Origin: Eublepharis macularius
Lineage: Eukaryota; Chordata; Lepidosauria; Squamata; Eublepharidae
Assembly: GCF_028583425.1 (NCBI RefSeq)
Contig: NC_072795.1
Location: 11,307,001 to 11,371,000, forward strand
Length of the DNA stretch: 64,000 bases
Direction of reading: 5' to 3'
Below, piece after piece: positions 1,080 to 62,283 of the stretch; the first letter of the stretch is position 1; each line of letters opens with the position of its first letter. The translations under genes and the position numbers were made by a program. The notes beneath the pieces are model-generated. The model had not been told where the DNA came from. It did not search any database and was given only the letters and a program-made list of their open reading frames with translations.

Positions 1080-1450
1080 AAATATATACATATTAAACAT
1101 ATTTAAAATATTTATTATACAGTGTACATAGTAATAAAATTAAAAACAAAGGGCCTGAATGTATTGTCGAAGGCTTTCACGGCCGGAGAACGATGGTTGT
1201 TGTGGGTTTTCCGGGCTGTATTGCCGTGGTCTTGGCATTGTAGTTCCTGACATTTCGCCAGCAGCTGTGGCTGGCAAAGGGCCTGAATGTCAGGCTACAT
1301 AGGAAAGTTTTAGATAAGCTGTAACATTCTCCAAATACAGTTGATAAACATATCAAATGAGCAACACAAGGCCATACACGTTTCGGCCCAAGGGCCTTCC
1401 TCAGTGGTCAGTAATACACACTTTAGTAATAAACAGACCCACACATCCAG
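1080..1450 (-). repeat. Third hammerhead-like repeat type (degenerate)
   Basis: On the minus strand, 1404-1377 reads CTGAGGA, a GGCCC/GGGCC hairpin, then GAAACGTG, followed by a tail reaching about 1080. This is the same layout as the hammerhead repeats described below, but the base after U16.1 is G, which would not support cleavage. A Penelope fragment (1163-1275) sits inside it. Confidence 0.5.
1163..1275 (-). mobile_element. Short Penelope-like element terminal fragment with 15-bp duplication
   Basis: Starts ATTGTCGAAGGCTTTCACGG and ends inside the ribozyme hairpin (GCTGTGGCTGGC). AAAGGGCCTGAATGT is present on both sides (1148-1162 and 1276-1290), a 15-bp target-site duplication. It is a strongly truncated insertion. 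Confidence 0.75.
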
Positions 1451-2743: not shown

Positions 2744-37317
<34,574 letters not shown>

Positions 37318-44800: not shown

Positions 44801-47800
44801 TGGCCAAAGGTAACACCTTTCAACCAGCAAGGCCAGACTCTGCTCCCAGCCAGGTTCTTCTATCTGTAAAAAAACGGAGGGAAAAGAATTCTCTTACTTG
44901 CAAGACGGCACAGATGGCGAGCTTAGGAATGGTGCCCAGCAGGCCAAAGCGCTGCAGCAGGAGGAAGAAGAGAGCCGGTGCAAAGAGCAGGATATTCATT
45001 TTCACAGACACTGCAAGGCTGGAAGAGGAGAGACGGCGTTGGTGCCTGAGAGCAATGCGAGGTCCATTCAAGTCCCCAAGTTCCCTGCACACGCGACTTA
45101 GCATTGTGTCAATAGTAGAACATCACAAACACCACATGATGAAAACAGCACAGCAGGACTGCCCACTGGCGATTTCCATTTCCCCAAAACAACGCAGGAA
45201 AACCAAACTCCTTGCAGGGTAGTGGGCACAAAGAGAAATCAAGCTAATAACCAGGGGCGGGGAGAGTGAGGCAGGTGGGGAAGAACATGCAAGGAAAGGC
45301 TGAGCGACGCGCGCCTTTGATGCAACAGGTGGGCTCCACAATTCTGCATTTCAGCCTTCTGCAAGTACCGCTTTGCTGTTATTTGTTTGCCTTCAGTGGC
45401 TCAACCAGCCCCGAAAGGGTCTCACCTGAAGCAGAAGCAGCCCCAAGACCAGTGGTCCTCCAGGAAAAGGTTGACGGCCAAGAAAAGGATTGCCATGGCG
45501 ACGGGGTCGTTGAAGAGGCGTAGGACGAAGATGGAGTGGATGCGGTAGGAGGCACAGCACATGAAGAAGAAAACGTAAGGAGGGACCTGCTGGCAAAAGT
45601 GGCAACGTATCACCAGATGTGTCCTCCAGGGAGCTCCATCTGCCAAACAGATGCAATTCCTGTTTGACAGGTGCATGCCTGCCAACTATATTTCTGTGAC
45701 GTGTGCAGTCAGTGAGTGTCGGTGCCCTGAACCTCCCAGAGGAGTGGCTAGGAGTTTTGTTAAGCGAAGATATCCATCTCTCTGACTACGAGAAGCTCAA
45801 CATAAGCCTTGATTGTTCATCCCAGACTTTCCCCCCATGACTATGAAAGGGGACAGATTATGTTGGGCTCTGAAATGCTAGATTAGAGTCTCAGAGCCAA
45901 GCTACAAGTGACGCCTGACACAGGTTGGACACTTGTCAGCTTCCCTCAAGTTTTGATGGGAAATGTAGGCATCCTGGTCTTGCAGCTGTAATGGAGAGCC
46001 AAGTTGTAAAATCAGGACGCCTACATTTCCCATCAAAACTTGAGGCAAGCTGACAAGCGTCCAACCTGTGTAAGGCGTCACTTGTAGCTTGGCTCTCAGA
46101 CTCCTCGGCATTTATGCGCACGAGCCGCAAAAAGAACTGTGGTTCGCAACCTCTATTAACAGCAGCATTTGAGTCCAGTGACACCTTAGAGACCACCAAG
46201 ATTTTCAGGGTGTACACTTTTAAGAGTCACAGCTCCCTTTCTCAGATACAAGCAGGGAAGGAGGTCCCCACTAGGGACAAAGACGGGGGTATAACATTTG
46301 TTATAAATCAAAATTCTGGCTACAGTTCACCCAGAAAAGATAATTGCTATTGCTGCCGCTTCATCGACCAATGTTTGCATCAGCCTGCTCGTAGTCAAGT
46401 TTGCATAAAGGCATCACAAATAGATAGAGCTACTGTTGTTCCCTGTGTCTGAAGAAGGGCGCTCTGACTCTCAAAAGCTTACACCCTGATCATCTTGTTG
46501 GTCTCTAACGTACCACAGGACTCCAATCCTGCTGTTCTACTGCAGACTAACAAGGCTACCTACCTAAAACTTAACTTCTGTTAAAAAAGCACTTGCCCGT
46601 AAGTTTGCCCCAAATCTACAAATTCCACCATTTCGGCATCAATTTAGAATTTAAGCTCCATCGGACAGGCATCTGCCTTCGTTCCTGCTATTATTTTGTA
46701 AGATGCAATCTGCACTGACGGTGCTGATCAAAATAAGCAATCGAAACCTTGGCAACGAACATTCCCAGAGTTCCTGCCCTTCTGCCCTCATCTGCAGCCC
46801 TGTGCTCTCCCGACTTTATCTTTCCCCTTCATGACGTGTTTGGTTGGAGGCTCCCGTTTCTGACAGAAGAAGAAACGCTCTTCAGCGATCCTTCAGATGC
46901 CGCGCCCGGCTACTGACCTTATTGGTCCGGCTGTAGATGCGGAAAACCAGCAGCAGCGTGGCGAGGTAAAGGGCGGCAAAGAGGTACTGGGCCAGGCGGA
47001 TGTTGGTGCCACGGCCAGTGGCATAGTACAGGCCCAGGAAGATATAAACAAAGCCAGCTGGATAACTGCGAAGAGAGAGAAAAATGAGAACGCTCGAGAG
47101 GACAGGAAAAGCCGCTGCTCCTCTCACCAAGCGTCAGGCTTCAGAGGAGACCCCCCCCCCACTCCAAGTCCAACCCTAGACTCTGGAGGGGTAACTGGCA
47201 CTCACACAAGGGGGCCAGTGTCTCCTTTCAGCTGGGTGTAATCCAGGGTCCCGTTCACAACGCCCTCCACCTCATCCATGTAAGCTTTCCAGTCAATCTC
47301 TGTATCTAGAGGGAGAGCACAGGAGAAGTCACACAGAGAAGGCGCTCTGCTCAGCTGCTGGAAAGACTCTCGTCTCACGAAAAGCGATTAAAGGATCTAT
47401 CACACCATGCGCCATGTTCTCCATGCACATCTCCCGTTCCGCACATGTGTCTCCCTGGTGGAATCTTTCTCTGAAGTCTCGTTACAGCCTGGACAGCCTT
47501 CCCGAGGAGGTCAAGAAGGCTCCCGAGCCCGCATCGTTCCGCAGAATACGTAAAACAAAATTGTTCAAGCGGGCATTTTTAGAAAGGGAATGGCGCCACA
47601 GTTTTATGGCACTGTCTAGTGTATGCATGAGCTCACTCTTTCTGCATTGCTTCCTAGTTTCTGTAATCCAACCTTATTGCGCTGTTTATTGTACATTTTA
47701 GGCTGTTGCATCATTTTAAAATTTTGTGATCCGCCTTGAGGCTCAGCAAGAAAGGCGGACTATAAAGTAAATAAATAAATGGCCATGTTTGGAAATAGAT

Positions 47801-49659
47801 CCAGAGGAGTTAGCCGTGTTAGTCTGTAGTAGCAAAATCAAAAAGAGTCCAGTAGCACCTTTAAGACTAACCAACTTTACTGTAGCATACGCTTTCGAGA
47901 ATCACAGTTCTCTTCGTCAGATGCAACAAAGAGCGCTGTGGTTCTCGAAAGCTTATGCTACAGTAAAGTTGGTTAGACTTAAAGGTGCTACTGAACTCTT
48001 TACATGTTTGGAAAGGCTCTGAGAGGTTTCATTTGGCCTCCTGGGATTAAACTTTCCGTAGCTGGGAGGGAACGAGATGGGCATGAAGACAGACAGCCTA
48101 CAAGTCTTCAATAATTCAGCAAATACAAGACTGGTGATAGAGGGCGTATGACCAGAGAAGGGGGGGTACTAATAACCATTTCACAACATAACTACATCCA
48201 GTGAATGGCAAAACCAGCTCATCAAGAGGTTACATGGGCACTATAGTAAGAAACCACTTGGTCAAATGGTTATTAGGTCATCACTACAGAATGCAGATTG
48301 CGTTGACCCGGCAAAATTCCACCCTGGGGCAGTGTCAATATCTGTATCCACCACAAGACCAGCTCACAACGCAATGCAAATTTCAGCACCACCACAAAAC
48401 CACCGAAATATGGGCTGTGTTGAGGTTCCGTTCTAAACTGAGAAGAAATTGGAGTTGAGTTGTACTAACTTCATGCAGCAGAAGTTTTGTAAGATCTGGA
48501 AGCCATTTTCTCAGCCGCCTCCTGATTACTGAGTTGCCAACTCCAGGTTGGGAAGTTTCCAGAAATGTAGGGATGGCACCTGCCAGGGGAGTTCAGCAGG
48601 AATGTGATGCCATAGCATCCACCCTTGCAAGCGACAATTTTCTCCAGGGAAACTGATCTCTCTCATCAGGAAATCAGTTGTAATTCCAGGAGATCTTCAG
48701 GCCCCACCTGGAGGCTGGCAACCCAGGTGGCTTTCAGGGCTATAACCTCTGACAGACCCATCACCAAGCACCAGTTATTCCAGATTTGGGGCACCTGTCC
48801 GCTCACCCTCGTTTCTCTTCCTGACATGTCTCTTGATGCTCTGTGTTTATAGTTCATGCCTTTTTCTTCTACCATACTGCCAGGCAATACTGACATTCCT
48901 AGACCTTCTACAGAAGGCAGCTTCATGAATTTCACTATCCAGCCCTTACAAAGGGAGCTCTGACTGTCAAAAGCTTAAACCCTGAAAATCTCCTTGGTCT
49001 TTAAGGTGCCGCTGGACCTGAATCTGGCTGTTCAACCCTGGCAGGCAGCATATGCCGCTTGCGCAAGCCCTATATGAAACCCACCATACCAGACCCTCTC
49101 CGGACCCCACAGGAGACCCTGAGCTGATGCCCCCTCTGCTCAGAGCCACAGTGAACCCATCCCCAACATGCCATCCCTCAAGATGTGCCAGGGCACATCA
49201 CTCCTCCACCCTCTGCCCTGCCTAGTGCTGCCAGCTCAGAGTTAGGCAATTCCTGGAGATCTGGGGTGCAACCAGGGAAGAATAAAGTTTGGGGATGGAG
49301 GGTAGACTGCCACGGAGTCCACCCTCCAAAGCAGCCATGTTCTCCAGGGGACCTGATCTCTGCAGTCTGGAGAGGAGTTCTAATTCCGGGAGATCGCCAG
49401 CTCTCACCTGGAGGTTGGCAACAGCCCCGGCCCCCTCCCTACCCCCCCCCTGGCGCGGGCACTCACATGCCACCCGCTGGATGACCCACTGATTGACCCC
49501 CACCTCCGCCAGGCAGAGGCAGGCGGCCACCAGCGGCGTGTAGCGGGGCTCCAGCAGCACCCGGCGCTTGTCCTGCCAGGCCCGGCGCAGGCTCTGCCGC
49601 AGGACGGGCGACCCCAGCCCCGCGCCGCCCTTCCTCCGCAGCCCGGGCCCCGCAGCCAT
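38710..49659 (-). CDS. ALG3: ALG3, Dol-P-Man:Man5GlcNAc2-PP-Dol alpha-1,3-mannosyltransferase (complete, 9 exons)
   Basis: ALG3 transfers the first lumenal mannose, from dolichol-phosphate-mannose to Man5GlcNAc2-PP-dolichol, in the ER membrane during N-glycan precursor assembly. Exons in transcription order: 49659-49467, 47305-47206, 47065-46918, 45586-45426, 45018-44898, 43034-42829, 40855-40779, 40614-40470, 38881-38710. They total 1,323 bp, or 440 residues plus stop; human ALG3 has 438. Visible family blocks are [102 protein letters not shown] and [12 protein letters not shown]. The protein is very hydrophobic, as expected for a multi-pass ER enzyme. NGT in VVNGTLDY is a possible glycosylation sequon, and the C-terminal KKAE fits a KKXX ER-retrieval signal. 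It is convergent with VWA5B2 and divergent from EEF1AKMT4. The intron between exons 7 and 8 looks U12-type. Confidence 0.96.
39125..39595 (+). repeat. Repeat of about 470 bp also present at 54541-55020
   Basis: Shares GGCACCCACCAAGTGTTTTT and GGCAGCCATTTTGTGGCT with the second copy. A worn hammerhead-family repeat (39214-39310: GAGTCCAGTGGCACCTTAGA to CTTCTTTAGATGC) is inserted in it. Its class is unknown. Confidence 0.55.
40470..40614 (-). CDS. ALG3: ALG3 exon 8
   Basis: Begins with AG completing a Gln codon, then [20 protein letters not shown] and [27 protein letters not shown]. It is preceded by AC, not AG. The donor is GTAAGA and the exon leaves in phase 2. Confidence 0.93.
40615..40778 (-). 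other. ALG3 intron 7, probable U12-type AT-AC intron
   Basis: Read on the minus strand, this 164-bp intron starts ATATCCTT, ends in GGCCAC, and carries TTCCCTTAAC at 40634-40625, a close match to the U12 branch-site consensus TTCCTTAAC. The branch A lies about 11 nt from the 3' end, as expected for minor-spliceosome introns. The flanking coding phases fit exactly (C + AG = Gln). Confidence 0.85.
40779..40855 (-). CDS. ALG3: ALG3 exon 7 (77 bp, before the AT-AC intron)
   Basis: Encodes [20 protein letters not shown] then PLSAN, equivalent to human [25 protein letters not shown]. The acceptor is CCCGGCAG. The exon ends with AACC and is followed directly by ATATCCTT, the U12-type AT donor consensus. 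Confidence 0.88.
41270..41410 (-). repeat. LINE 3' tail, inverted
   Basis: TTATTATTTATTTATTAAAT then TTATAGTCGGCTCTCCCCGC is an inverted LINE 3' end. Similar tails lie near 50117-50180, 55535-55700 and 58590-58680. Confidence 0.55.
41725..42400 (+). repeat. CR1/L2-like LINE C-terminal and 3' region
   Basis: Encodes [40 protein letters not shown] and [17 protein letters not shown], typical of ORF2 C-termini, and continues into the 3' region with AGGTCCATCAGTGGCTATTA. It lies in an ALG3 intron, antisense to the gene. Confidence 0.8.
42829..43034 (-). CDS. ALG3: ALG3 exon 6
   Basis: Encodes [40 protein letters not shown] and on to LFALNRWH. It is nearly collinear with human. It leaves in phase 2 before GTAAGA. 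Confidence 0.95.
43965..44262 (+). repeat. RTE/BovB-like LINE fragment
   Basis: Encodes [20 protein letters not shown] and [14 protein letters not shown], and in another frame [18 protein letters not shown], hallmarks of the RTE/BovB ORF C-terminus. It is frameshifted and short. Confidence 0.7.
44263..44897 (-). other. ALG3 intron 5 stretch, unassigned
   Basis: It contains CACACAGACTGACTGAACCT-like direct repeats near 44535-44595 but nothing I recognise as a gene or known element. Confidence 0.4.
44898..45018 (-). CDS. ALG3: ALG3 exon 5
   Basis: Encodes [20 protein letters not shown] and [20 protein letters not shown]. The acceptor is CTCTTCCAG, the donor is GTAAGA, and the exon ends in phase 0. 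Confidence 0.95.
45426..45586 (-). CDS. ALG3: ALG3 exon 4
   Basis: Encodes [40 protein letters not shown] and [13 protein letters not shown]. The acceptor is TTGCCAGCAG and the donor GTGAGA. It leaves in phase 2 (AG, completed to Ser by exon 5). Confidence 0.95.
45896..46094. mobile_element. Palindromic MITE, AGCCAAGC family
   Basis: Near-identical to 12750-12949, flanked by CTCAG on both sides. It lies in ALG3 intron 3. Confidence 0.8.
46155..46570. repeat. Hammerhead-family repeat, two worn inverted halves
   Basis: The left half GAGTCCAGTGACACCTTAGA and right half GGCGCTCTGACTCTCAAAAG to GGCTACCTACCTAAAAC face each other across about 200 bp of unrelated sequence. Confidence 0.6.
46918..47065 (-). 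CDS. ALG3: ALG3 exon 3
   Basis: Encodes [20 protein letters not shown] and [20 protein letters not shown] through [10 protein letters not shown] 140-bp intron separates it from exon 2. The donor is GTCAGT and the exon ends in phase 0. Confidence 0.95.
47206..47305 (-). CDS. ALG3: ALG3 exon 2
   Basis: Encodes [20 protein letters not shown] and [13 protein letters not shown]. The first two bases complete the Tyr codon left by exon 1. The acceptor ends CTCTAG and the donor is GTGAGT. It contains the conserved acidic lumenal loop (EIDWKAYM). Confidence 0.95.
47410..47785 (+). repeat. LINE 3' fragment
   Basis: Encodes [20 protein letters not shown] and [14 protein letters not shown], and ends CGGACTATAAAGTAAATAAA. 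It lies in ALG3 intron 1. Confidence 0.65.
47796..48002. mobile_element. Hammerhead-bearing short repeat, inverted dimer, 12-bp duplication
   Basis: TAGATCCAGAGGAGTTAGCC at left, inverted core at 47878-47924, second arm to 48002. CATGTTTGGAAA flanks it at 47784-47795 and 48003-48014. The left core has one altered base in helix III and the right arm lacks CTGANGA. Confidence 0.8.
48525..48725 (-). repeat. Interspersed repeat of about 190 bp, inverted
   Basis: AAATCAGTTGTAATTCCAGG and CCCCACCTGGAGGCTGGCAA are the complement of the repeat at 163-345. Confidence 0.6.
49226..49435 (-). repeat. Interspersed repeat of about 190 bp, inverted
   Basis: GTTCTCCAGGGGACCTGATC and TTCTAATTCCGGGAGATCGC, the same family as 163-345. 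It ends about 30 bp inside ALG3 intron 1. Confidence 0.6.
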
Positions 49660-51343: not shown

Positions 51344-51599
51344 CCTAAGACCGAGTTTGTTCACCTCTGAGTGGGGCACTGATCTGCCTAGAAGAGCAGT
51401 ATATAATCGGAGTTATTATTATGAGCTGTTGTAACATAGAGGTTAGGTGGTTGACATGTAAATCAACATTAGGAAGAAAAGTATAAATGAAGCGAATAAA
51501 TAACATCAGATGGCCGCCCCTGCACGGTGCCTTCCTGGTGATGAGGAAGAGGGGGTTGGGATCATGCAAAGGGCACCCTTATTTGACACCTCCCAAAGC

Positions 51600-51792
51600 T
51601 GTACCATTGTAGCATAGAGCTGCTGCATCATAGTGGTTAAGTGGTTGGGTTGTAACTCAGCATTCTGCTGGTTCGACTCCCACTGCCATGAACACAGCAG
51701 GTGGCCTTGGACAAACCACTCCTCTTGCCCCAGCTCCCCAGCTGCATTTTTGGGATAATAATAACACAGACTTTGTTCACTGCTCTGAGTGG
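51600..51792 (+). repeat. tRNA-like SINE, third family
   Basis: TAGCATAGAGCTGCTGCATC, AGTGGTTAAGTGGTTGGGTT and GGTTCGACTCCCACTG keep tRNA-like promoter boxes. A second copy starts at about 52088 and is split by the solo LTR. Confidence 0.65.
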
Positions 51793-51889
51793 TCATAGAT
51801 CCAGAGGAGTTAGCCGTGTTAGTCTGTAGTAGCAAAATCAGAAAGAGTCCAGTAGCACCTTTAAGACTAACCAATTTTATTATAGCATA

Positions 51890-51931
51890 AGCTTTCGAGA
51901 ATCAAGTTCTCTTCATCAGATTCCTGATCAA
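51890..51931 (-). ncRNA. Hammerhead ribozyme motif, inverted partner
   Basis: On the minus strand: CTGATGA, the same GAGAA/TTCTC hairpin and GAAAGCTTATGC. Helix I is weaker (GAAT against ATGC). Confidence 0.6.
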
Positions 51932-51944
51932 AACATCTGATCAG

Positions 51945-51983
51945 GCATCTGATGAAGAGAACTTGATTCTCGAAAGCTTATGC
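51945..51983 (+). ncRNA. Hammerhead ribozyme motif, best-preserved copy
   Basis: GCAT, CTGATGA, A, GAGAA-CTTGA-TTCTC hairpin, GAA, palindromic AGCT, T, ATGC. Helix I (GCAT/ATGC) and helix II (5 bp) are perfect, and cleavage would follow 51979. An unpaired A separates the core from helix II. Confidence 0.7.
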
Positions 51984-52340
51984 TATAATAAAATTGGTTA
52001 GTCTTAAAGGTGCTACTGGACTCTTTTTGATTTTGCTCTGAGTGGGGCACTGATCTGTCCAGAAGAGAGAGAGATAAGTGCAGTTATTCTTAGGAGCTGC
52101 TCTAGCATAGTGGTTAAGTAATACAAATCGGGCAAATCAGCGCTCTGCTGGTTTGCATCCCACTGCTGCCCTGAGCTCTGTAGGTGGCTCTGTTCACCGC
52201 TTTGAGCGGGCACTAATCTTTCTAGAAGAGCTGTATATAAGCACAGTCATTATTATTTATTATTACTGCCATGAGCTCAGGAGGTGGCCTTGGATAAGGC
52301 ACTCCTCTCACCCCCAGCAACCTGGCTGTATTGCGGGGAT

Positions 52341-55899: not shown

Positions 55900-56035
55900 T
55901 TGGTCTCAGGTGGGTAGCCGTGTTGATCTGCCCTGGAAGAGCAAGATTAGAGTCCAGTAGCACCTTAAAGACCAACTAGATTTCCAGGATATGAGCTTTC
56001 AAGAGTCAGAGCTCCCTTCATCCGATGGTCTGATG
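55900..56035 (-). repeat. Hammerhead-family short repeat, worn
   Basis: GTGGGTAGCCGTGTTGATCT and AGTAGCACCTTAAAGACCAA. The complement of 55990-56030 reads CGGATGA where CTGATGA is expected. Confidence 0.6.
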
Positions 56036-56814
56036 GTGACTGGCAGGCGGCATGGCAGTGCTGAGTTGACCAGATCTCTGGTCAGTCGTGGCTAATTTGG
56101 CAACATAGCCTTGTGCTGCCACAAGGAAAGAAGACGAGAAGAGGGGTGGACAGCTCTGTTTTTGCTATCTTATGGCTGTTATTCCAACCCCCATTTTGCT
56201 CAGTTTCCCCTCTGCTCCAATGCCAGTTTCAAGCTTGGTAGCAGTGACTCAGATCTGGACTAGCGAGGGGGTGTTTTGGGGAATTGTAAGTAGTTACTGC
56301 ATTGAGGCATCTTAAGGGTTATTCAGATGTTTAAGGGAAGGAGGTATACAGTGTAAGATGCTGTCTGGTCTGATGCTGACAGGACTGTAGGTTTCCCTGT
56401 GAGATTCTAGACTCACTGGCCACCTGAGCTTTGGCAGGCATCTAGTTCCTTACCTTGCAAAGCAAAGTGGCTCAGAGAAACTGCGAGTTGGAGGCGTTTT
56501 GTGTTTTTTAGGTAGAAACCTAGTTTGTGCAATTTGGATGAATTGCACAAATTGGGCGTGTTTGCCAGGCCTGCCCAGCGATTAACAACTTATCGTTCTG
56601 ACTTCCATGAGCCAAGCTTTGAAATAACATTTTGATTATTTTGGTAAGGAAGAAGGTGGGTAGAAAATCCATGAAGGCAATTCCGTGCTTTCTTTGCAAA
56701 TATGAGGACTCGAAACGTTTTTTAAAAACACCTCAAAGGTACCAGGTTTTTTAGAGTCAGAAGTAGCTTGCCTGGAAGATACAGATACATTAGCCTGTGT
56801 GGCGGCTTGCAAGA

Positions 56815-56960
56815 GAAATCTGGCAAAGGTTTCTGACAAAGGGAGCTTTGACTCTTGAAAGCTCACCCCCTGGAAATCTAGTTGATCTTTAAGGTGCTAC
56901 TGGACTCGAATCTTGCTCTTCTACCACAGCCCAACACTGCTACCCGCCTGAAACGATCGG
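56815..56960 (+). repeat. Hammerhead-family short repeat, worn
   Basis: TTTCTGACAAAGGGAGC then CTTGAAAGCTCACCCCCTGG and AAGGTGCTACTGGACTCGAA. One core base differs (CTGACAA). Confidence 0.6.
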
Positions 56961-57737
56961 CAAGAGAAATGGCTCCCCTCGCCTTCTCCTCCTTGCTTTC
57001 CACCCTATAGCGAGGAAGGGTGTTCTTGGATCACTCCCTCCCTATTATGCACAGAAGATGCCAATCGGGGGTGGAGGGAGATGGACGGGAAGGCACATGG
57101 GTGCAGCAACAAGCCGTCCGCTTCTACTGCAGGGGTGACATTTTGTGAACGCGCAACATCGAATTCCTCCTGGCTGCCACCAGAGGGCAGTGTGGCGTCC
57201 CCTAAAATGGATGCTTCTCTTTGCTTTGTTTGTTTGTTTTATTTATTTAAAACCTGTCTTGTGATTTCCCCTTTGAGGGCTGTTCCTGATGGGGGCATAG
57301 CTTTACAGAATTACTGAGTCAGCCTGTTGGTCATCCTCTCCTTATAGCAGGAGTCTTTAGTAAGCTTTAAGGGTGTTTCCCTGTGTTTGGGGAGTCCTGT
57401 TTTTTTTAATTTAATGCAGCTGTTTGAATACCTATTGAACAAACCTGGGAATATGGGCAGGGCTTAGGAACCATTTGGGTATATTGGAAGGGGATAAGGA
57501 CTGTGCAGTGGCTTGGATACCCTGTCACCTGACTGCCAAAAAAACCTTCACATCAAACCTCTTTCTGAGCTGACATATTTCCAAACTTTTCCGTAGACTC
57601 ATAAGTGCTAGAAACTTGCTTCTCATTTAAACATTCTCGAAAGCCACCAGGCTGTCTGGCACCGTTCTCCTGGTTAGTATTACTAGATGAAAGGCAAGAT
57701 GCAGCTGCTTAGATATGCTGCACCCTCTTTTGGGGGA

Positions 57738-57902
57738 GATCCAGAGGAGTTAGCTGTGTTAGTCTGTAGTAGCAAAATAGAAAAGAGTCAGTAGCACCTT
57801 TAAGACTAACCAACTTTACTGTAGCATAAGCTTTCGAGAATCACAGTTCTCTTCGTCAGATGCAAAGTTGGTTAGTCTTAAAGGTGCTACTGGACTCTTT
57901 TC
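57738..57902 (-). mobile_element. Hammerhead-bearing short repeat, single arm, intact core
   Basis: Starts GATCCAGAGGAGTTAGCTGT and ends GGACTCTTTTC. The flanking CTCTTTTGGGGG and CTCTTATGGGGG look like a worn 12-bp duplication. Confidence 0.75.
57824..57863 (-). ncRNA. Hammerhead ribozyme motif
   Basis: On the minus strand: GCAT, CTGACGA, A, GAGAA/TTCTC hairpin, GAAAGCTT, ATGC. Core and both helices are intact. Confidence 0.65.
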
Positions 57903-58589
57903 TCTTATGGGGGGAGAACCTGGCTTTCATTTGCTTAGAAGTAAAAGTTTCTAACTCTTTTAACTGTTCTGTTTGAAGCTGAAAATGTAACACTGGAGAC
58001 GCGTGAAGGCTGTGAAGCCAAGAGGCAAGCTAAAGGCGTGCCCAGGTGTCATTGTTTTTCATCTCTTGTGAGTTGAGCCCATCTGTTTGGATTTTTCCAA
58101 GGCTGACTCAGGCTTTTCTCGTTGGCGGCTAATAGTAAGAATATCAGAGCGAGAAGCGCTTGTCCGCCAACTCTGATTTGGCATCTGCCATGGAAATGAT
58201 ATGCAGTTTGTTAATTGCATGTGCCTTAAATATGCAAGCTCGCTTTGGCTGCGTCTGTCTCAGGTATATTTTTATCTCTCTCTTAATATGTATTTCCAAA
58301 TGAGTATCTATTTAAATATTACTTCTTTTCCCCCCAGATGTTTCTGTATGGCTTTATTCCTTCGTATGCGGAAAGCTCAGAGTTCATCTGGTTAAAGAAG
58401 AAATTTACGTGATACTTTAATGCAATCTTCTCCTGTAGATTAGAATGTGCAGGCTGCACAAATGGATTCTTTCAGTGGAATCTCTGTGTTTGTTCCTTTT
58501 TAAAAAAGTGTCTAGTTCTCATGGCTATGGAAGAACAGGGAGTCATCCAGGCCCCCACTGATGTCATGACGTTTCCGTGGACTTAAATG

Positions 58590-61495: not shown

Positions 61496-62046
61496 TTTAC
61501 CTGCTGGCTACCCCACTCCATGTTCCGAGGTCACTGTGCAACCTGCCGGATCAGGCCTTGATGCATACTGGGCAAAGGGCACTTCCCACAGCAGATGCCG
61601 CATCAAATTCAGCCCAGTGCAAAGCAAGCAGCGGGCGCCTCCCAAAGCCCGTCTGAGAGTTCAGAACATGCCGATACAGGTGGATTCCTTGCCGGTGTGA
61701 TCTGTGGCACAATATTCATAAAAATGATTATGCCCAGGCTTAAATATTTGGAGGAGTGATATAATGCAAAGCCCCTTGGGTCTGAAGAACTTGTGAGGTT
61801 ATCTTCAAAGCAAAGGGAAGGGCAGAGGCCCGGGTGCAACAGCGAAATGGCGCTCTGGCCTGAGAGGTCGAGACAAAGGCTTCACAGGCGAGATTTGTTC
61901 GTTTGTTCAGGATACTTCTGTGCCGCCTCATCAGAGTCCTGCTGGAGGCCGCTTGCAATTGAAAAACATTGCAGTACAGAAACAAGCCAGTGGATGCAAG
62001 CGGCATAAAAGCAGTCAGGCAAAAGAAGTAAACTCTTAAAAAACTG

Positions 62047-62271
62047 CAAAATAGTAGAGTCCAGTAGCACCTTTCAGACGAACCAACTTTATTGCAGCAT
62101 AAGCTTTCGAGAACCACAGCTCTCTTCGTCAGATGCATCGTCAGATGCATCTGATGAAGAGAGCTATGGTTCTCTAAAGCTTATGCTTCAATAAAGTTGA
62201 TTAGTCTCAAAGATGCAATGGACTTTTTACTATTTAGCAACTACAGACTAACACGGTTAACTCCTCTGGAT
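62047..62271. mobile_element. Hammerhead-bearing short repeat, head-to-head dimer
   Basis: CTTAAAAAACTG (62035-62046) and CTTAAAAAGCTG (62272-62283) flank it. The left arm is inverted with an intact core (62097-62136, minus); the right arm has a changed base in GAAA. It landed beside the LINE at 62284. Confidence 0.8.
62097..62136 (-). ncRNA. Hammerhead ribozyme motif
   Basis: On the minus strand: GCAT, CTGACGA, A, GAGAGC/GTTCTC hairpin, GAAAGCTT, ATGC, cleavage expected between 62101 and 62100. Helix I is perfect. Confidence 0.65.
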
Positions 62272-62283
62272 CTTAAAAAGCTG

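Follow-up and report, generated by a model that had tools for sequence, protein, structure and literature searches.

What kind of element carries the hammerhead-like cores that recur in this window, the whole stretch of 64,000 nucleotides of Eublepharis macularius DNA analysed here? The initial annotation had described a short repeat family, placed at 17322, 47796, 51793, 57738 and 62047, and all five repeats were recovered at these places; the leader GATCCAGAGGAGTTAGCC occurs five times at ≤3 mismatches in the 64-kb window where 0.08 occurrences would be expected. Several of the copies had been called head-to-head inverted dimers, and in fact all five are built from a single unit present as two head-to-head arms, some of them truncated; in the 62047 copy the leader lies on the minus strand. 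In order of position, these copies (family F1) measure 174, 207, 241, 165 and 224 bp between their target-site duplications. Such duplications were found in 5/5 copies, are direct and 12-13 bp long, and contain one mismatch in 3/5; among 2000 random position pairs tried for each copy, 29, 20, 3, 5 and 7, respectively, matched as well. Positions 51793-52033 coincide exactly with the interval between the two TGCTCTGAGTGG copies. This copy was inserted into a SINE, and a paralog at 51346-51448 represents the insert-free site, matching at 79% over 105 nt across the joint of the two flanks, which three shorter paralog matches span as well. The search for insert-free sites was made at nine sites and gave informative paralogs for 51793 alone. 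The coordinates of F1, of its older relatives and of a second family (F2) are collected in the table.

Table. Repeat units, hammerhead-type motifs and target-site duplications in the window (+ and -, strand; fractions after duplications, matching positions).
Feature	Positions	Strand	Target-site duplication	Details
F1_51, head-to-head pair of probable Penelope-like 5'-end units	51793..52033			tailed arm minus, 51793-51922; tail-less arm plus, 51945-52033
Left target-site duplication of F1_51	51781..51792	+	TGCTCTGAGTGG	3/2000 random controls equally good
Right target-site duplication of F1_51	52034..52045	+	TGCTCTGAGTGG	
F1 copy, inverted pair	17322..17495		17310-17321 / 17496-17507 (11/12)	tailed arm truncated inside
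F1 copy, inverted pair	47796..48002		CATGTTTGGAAA 47784-47795 / 48003-48014	
F1 copy, inverted pair	57737..57901		57725-57736 / 57902-57913 (11/12)	tail-less arm truncated
F1 copy, inverted pair	62047..62270		62034-62046 / 62271-62283 (12/13)	tail at right end
Hammerhead-type motif of F1_51	51944..51984	+		predicted cut after GAAAGCTT; motif scan
Hammerhead-type motif of 57737 copy	57824..57863	-		motif scan
Hammerhead-type motif of 62047 copy	62097..62136	-		motif scan
Older F1 relative, head-to-head pair	8190..8390		not found	motif 8261-8300 (+)
Older relative, head-to-head pair	25378..25527		CATGTAGTACA 25367-25377 / 25528-25538	
Older relative, single arm with tail	34796..34920	-	34783-34794 / 34924-34935 (11/12)	
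Older relative, single arm with tail	56832..56954	+	GCAAGAGAAAT 56809-56819 / 56960-56970	
F2 head-to-head pair	6526..7601		AAACAATGCAATG 6513-6525 / 7602-7614	arms ~520 nt; motifs 6576-6616 (-), 7473-7513 (+)
F2 pair, right half two units in direct partial tandem	18950..20015		TTTCCCTTATAGA 18937-18949 / 20016-20028	motifs 19036-19076 (-), 19678-19718 (+), 19920-19960 (+)
F2 single-arm insertion with tail	1163..1274	-	1147-1162 / 1275-1290	

The sequence CTGANGA-N(4-30)-GAAA occurs 20 times in the 64-kb window compared with a mean of 6.28. A strict scan demanding the core, at least 4 bp in helix II, at least 3 bp in helix I, U16.1 and H17, with room for one additional nucleotide separating A9 from helix II, yielded 10 motifs, whereas 60 shuffles gave 0.017 on average; this ratio overstates the evidence since repeat copies are not independent. 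Three of these motifs belong to F1, one to the older relative (8261), five to F2 and one lies elsewhere (1372). All 10 score best with the extra nucleotide, and when it was disallowed the strict scan of the window returned none. A chrysanthemum viroid ribozyme is said to contain an extra nucleotide at the same place; if general, this insertion would explain why standard hammerhead models miss such ribozymes.

All invariant bases of a type I hammerhead with a palindromic helix III had been claimed for the unit. The core-type motif and the palindrome are indeed present, but the scored core bases are kept in 5/10 F1 arms (17free, 51tail, 51free, 57tail and 62free), and only three of the ten (51free, 57tail and 62free) combine the core with a fully paired helix I of at least 4 bp. 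Nor does the unit possess the helix III of its own that a canonical type I hammerhead would have: helix III amounts to a 4-nt palindrome, AGCU or ACGU, which pairs well only between two molecules, so that a single molecule has no true helix III. The covariance-model search proposed in the initial annotation gave no match to the Rfam hammerhead models in the window, whether the cut-off was the gathering score or an E value of 10, and none in three short stretches searched alone; folding of four single motifs was no more stable than that of most shuffles (z -0.7 to -2.0). The lack of an Rfam match and the weak folding are what one would expect if the resemblance to a hammerhead had arisen by chance within a miscellaneous inverted repeat. 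We consider this extremely improbable in view of the 10 motifs found against 0.017 expected, of an identical core in two families of otherwise unrelated sequence, and of compensatory changes in both helices. These changes were scored in an alignment of 12 tailed stretches (five F1, seven older), the tail-less arms being left out. In this alignment 94.6% of the cells of helices I and II are paired, compared with 32-70% in slid controls, and changes on both sides occur at 5/9 pairs, a count reached by 1/500 shuffles, while the pairing and covariation scores were reached by 0/500. Covariation of helices I and II between copies indicates that the sources maintained the ribozyme, and the comparison of copies thus makes ribozyme function at the level of the source elements likely, with activity of their RNA as a prediction. 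The core had further been expected to be better kept than the rest of the repeat; in the inserted F1 arms it changed at 3/85 cells compared with 48/648 elsewhere (p 0.26), which is no significant signal of protection after insertion. The motif belonging to neither family (1372-1407, minus strand) adjoins the F2 single-arm copy and combines CTGAGGA, an additional A, a GGCC helix and GAAACGTGTA.

Could F1 be a retrozyme, that is, a non-autonomous element spreading through circular RNA excised by its hammerhead? Its small size, its non-coding character and its hammerhead core would agree with this, and the enzymes of PLEs (Penelope-like elements) are suspected to serve animal retrozymes, according to the available parts of PMC7229834 and PMC7761336. 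Metazoan non-LTR retrozymes, as portrayed in the accessible text of PMC7229834, are likewise small non-coding repeats with type I hammerheads, but there canonical hammerheads stand in direct tandem repeats, whereas the F1 hammerhead is minimal and each pair bears its two motifs on opposite strands. Each strand, and hence each transcript, thus contains at most one sense motif, so that the unit cannot be released by a cut on each side. The RNA of a pair, moreover, folds as one long hairpin: for 239 nt of pair RNA, -171 kcal/mol was calculated, compared with -50.8 for shuffles (z -28). The ends of F1 fit reverse-transcription starts and not the ribozyme cut site. The sole direct same-strand tandem of motifs in the window, formed by the two plus-strand motifs of the 18950 pair ~240 nt apart, belongs to F2, and the second of them has lost the palindrome. 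With the two hammerheads of a pair on opposite strands and a one-hairpin RNA, excision of a circle from F1 pairs is unlikely on the modelled folding, and the retrozyme reading is very improbable; neither 'retrozyme-like' nor the suggestion of circular RNA was borne out.

More informative is a second family. F2 shares no detectable sequence similarity with F1, and no F1 query matched any F2 place. Its motif, CTGAAGATGCC...GAAACGTC, overlaps a reading frame whose ATG lies at A9 of the core. Counted in this ORF, the cut would fall after nt 29, while tail-less arms run to nt 82 and 87 and tailed ones to nt 118 and 120. Upstream of the motif an open frame of ~117 codons is closed by a stop, and we take its product to resemble the C-terminus of a PLE protein; with this C-terminal peptide, Pfam gave no match and the best PDB match had an E of 1.2. 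The F2 unit at 19884-20015 starts ~30-40 nt past a TATAAAT-like stretch that is seen in the sister arm; the pLTR transcript possibly starts where this unit does.

Judged from its sequence, F2 shows the ribozyme and reading-frame geometry published for PAc, a Poseidon/Penelope-like element of Anolis carolinensis (PMC11167929), in which the hammerhead overlaps the ORF start as well. In PAc the distance from the cut to the reverse-transcription start is about 82-92 nt, the optional tail measures 30-40 bp, and the protein cuts and extends both target strands (PMC11167929); the spacing and the tail seen here are comparable, and an enzyme working on both strands fits two-sided insertions. F1 differs from PAc in sequence and in having no ORF through the unit, the likeness to PAc being drawn from its published description.

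F1 and F2 share one layout. The minimal hammerhead lies right at the start of the unit or a little downstream of it, a first end lies ~50 nt past the cut, and the tail, present on one arm per pair, adds ~37 nt. Distances could be measured in 6/7 insertions for each type of end: from the cut to the tail-less end they are 48, 54, 54 and 57 nt in F1 and 53 and 58 nt in F2, and to the tailed end 88, 91, 93 and 96 nt in F1 and 89 and 91 nt in F2. Two end distances are expected from the two internal reverse-transcription starts of PAc. Exactly one tailed end is found in 8/8 pairs with a clear duplication (five F1, two F2 and 25378), a pattern that would have a probability of at most 0.5^8 = 0.004 if each end were chosen independently, and by profile positions the older pairs 8190 and 46167, which lack a clear duplication, have one tail likewise. 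In F1 and older units the body may form a stem with the tail, GTTAGTCT/AGACTAAC, of which 91.7% of cells are paired compared with 28-35% when slid. Its covariation is weak (the score was reached by 36/500 shuffles, the number of pairs changed on both sides by 381/500), so that this stem is only suggestive; in older copies it is of the GTTGGTCT/AGACCAAC type, and the tail-less end lies inside it.

The same anatomy is known from PLEs. In the available part of PMC3846280, inverted pLTRs of Penelope elements of Adineta vaga and others are described as head-to-head, with a tail optional at one of them, duplications of 8-10 bp and a palindrome at the junction. Head-to-head ends with a tail on one were found here in 8/8 pairs, a short target-site duplication in 5/5 F1 copies, and a minimal type I hammerhead close to the reverse-transcription start, though without an Rfam match. 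However, the pLTR pair of those elements usually flanks a coding element, whereas here the ends stand alone, and the duplications of 12-13 bp in F1 and 11-16 bp overall are unlike those of Adineta vaga-type pLTRs as given in that part of PMC3846280. For the minimal type I hammerheads of PLEs, activity as dimers has been reported (Cervera and de la Pena 2014; Lunse et al. 2017; both as cited in the accessible portions of PMC7761336 and PMC6466107), and a very short palindromic helix III suggesting dimers is what we see here; the additional nucleotide that follows A9 in all 10 motifs may be a difference from them. No ORF runs through the F1 unit, whose frames are disrupted in one way in F1 and in another in an older relative, and we take the unit as non-coding from its sequence. 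No coding capacity was found in the F1 copies, and the link to Penelope elements drawn earlier agrees with the ends, the single tail and the duplications (PMC11167929; PMC3846280, in part). We therefore identify the five repeats with high confidence as copies of the 5' ends of PLEs. F1 is a known kind of system and not the under-described one it had been thought to be, PLE anatomy and minimal PLE hammerheads being already in print, as far as the sources available in part go. No description of the short F1 family was noticed in the literature searched, the coverage of which lacks two key papers, so this is no proof of novelty.

The well-preserved F1 ends record how Penelope-like elements insert. 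In a short pair that retains intact duplications, a single event is visible with its two ends and its junction, so that such pairs can discriminate self-priming from two-strand priming. The explanation that accounts best for the whole, and that we regard as very probable, is that the repeats are copies of PLE ends, with the pairs resulting, more tentatively, from two-strand priming. A PLE protein would cut both target strands, DNA synthesis would be primed on each strand from a separate RNA, once at the distal and once at the proximal start, and the far ends of these two cDNAs would be joined, aided by the short palindrome GATGCATC that is found at the centres of several copies. The hammerhead would act, if at all, in the RNA of the source element, probably assisted by protein or as a dimer, and the inserted pairs would be by-products without the upstream promoter region or the coding frame. 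For the more specific proposal that each pair derives from two RNAs and two strands, we have a slight preference. Compared with the similar arms at 6.5 kb, two arms of the 18950 pair show 11 differences and 1 difference, respectively (p 0.006), which looks like the use of two RNA templates. On the other hand, PAc does not differ in start site between the strands in vitro (PMC11167929), and equal use of the start sites on both strands leaves one tail per pair unexplained.

Alternatively, the first cDNA may fold back at the central palindrome and copy itself into a second arm, stopping at the proximal start since the protein remains on the tail. Such self-priming has been put forward for inverted PLE ends in the accessible part of PMC3846280, and the presence of GATGCATC in several copies would suit it. 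It would also suit the 51793 pair, whose arms show one difference in 80 shared columns and have two private substitutions and a deletion in common. Over all pairs, the mean distance between arms is 0.083 within a pair and 0.116 between different pairs. The slightly greater closeness of arms of one pair and the private changes common to the 51793 arms would also be expected from self-priming or from one source locus. A fold-back copy should include the tail, yet one tail is found in 8/8 pairs, the 47796 arms carry different variants of helix II, and the unequal divergence of the 18950 arms from their common relative is contrary to a self-copy. By their substitutions, the 51793 pair looks like the product of a single source and the 18950 pair like that of two, and we regard self-priming as a possible but rather unlikely origin of the pairs.

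We also considered that the inverted pair itself might be mobile, a palindromic element of SINE-like kind propagated in one piece from a master pair. The same tailed/tail-less layout in the five F1 copies and a centre nearly constant in most of them agree with this, as does an uncorrected test of the tailed/tail-less labels in which 2/32 relabellings were as extreme, a test biased by conserved tail columns. On columns common to both types of arm this signal was gone (4/32 at a minimum of 20 columns and 18/32 at 60), and the tailed arms as a whole are not set apart from the tail-less ones by any column. Single-arm insertions with duplications of their own at 1163, 34796 and 56832 likewise speak against a mobile pair, which we consider improbable. 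Within two-strand priming, a bolder version can be offered only tentatively: F1 might be a Penelope lineage reduced to a non-coding remnant (a 'Penelope SINE'), with only the hammerhead, the stem between body and tail and both start sites retained, and pairs might be the normal product of a PLE dimer priming both strands from two RNAs, with one subunit per start site and hence one tail. A spacing of 50/91 nt shared by two unrelated sequences and a single tail per pair are both simple predictions, and counts from any reptile genome can address them.

A profile built from four tailed arms detected 19 stretches at E < 1e-5 in the window, namely all ten arms of F1 plus nine that are older and more diverged. 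Over all families a clear duplication was seen at 10/15 sites (five F1, three F2, 25378 and 34796) and was absent at 8190, 46167, 55903-56954, 39218 and 22483. Rechecking eight sites with wider margins added one duplication, at 56832 as a single arm, giving 11 in all, with older sites mostly without. Reading 55903-56954 as one element with inverted ends was rejected, as no duplication was found for the pair and the right arm alone has one. In the reading frames beside older copies nothing was recognised. The window lists 88 ORFs of at least 100 aa; in 28 translated stretches Pfam gave no match to a PLE reverse transcriptase or GIY-YIG domain, and its seven weak matches were all below cut-offs, none being a reverse transcriptase. 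A 17-base pattern used for distant relatives had no match in phages and plasmids and picked out 15 stretches in viral_contigs and 19 in genome_contigs; these were treated as chance, the best similarity to the repeats being 22 bases. Other inverted repeats of the window, at 22595-22717 / 22825-22947, 1660-1775, 12845-12962 and 45990-46099, are related to one another and MITE-like, with no relation to F1 seen. A further inverted repeat, at 5269-5485 / 5498-5714, has arms of 217 nt that are 98% complementary and enclose an AT-rich centre.
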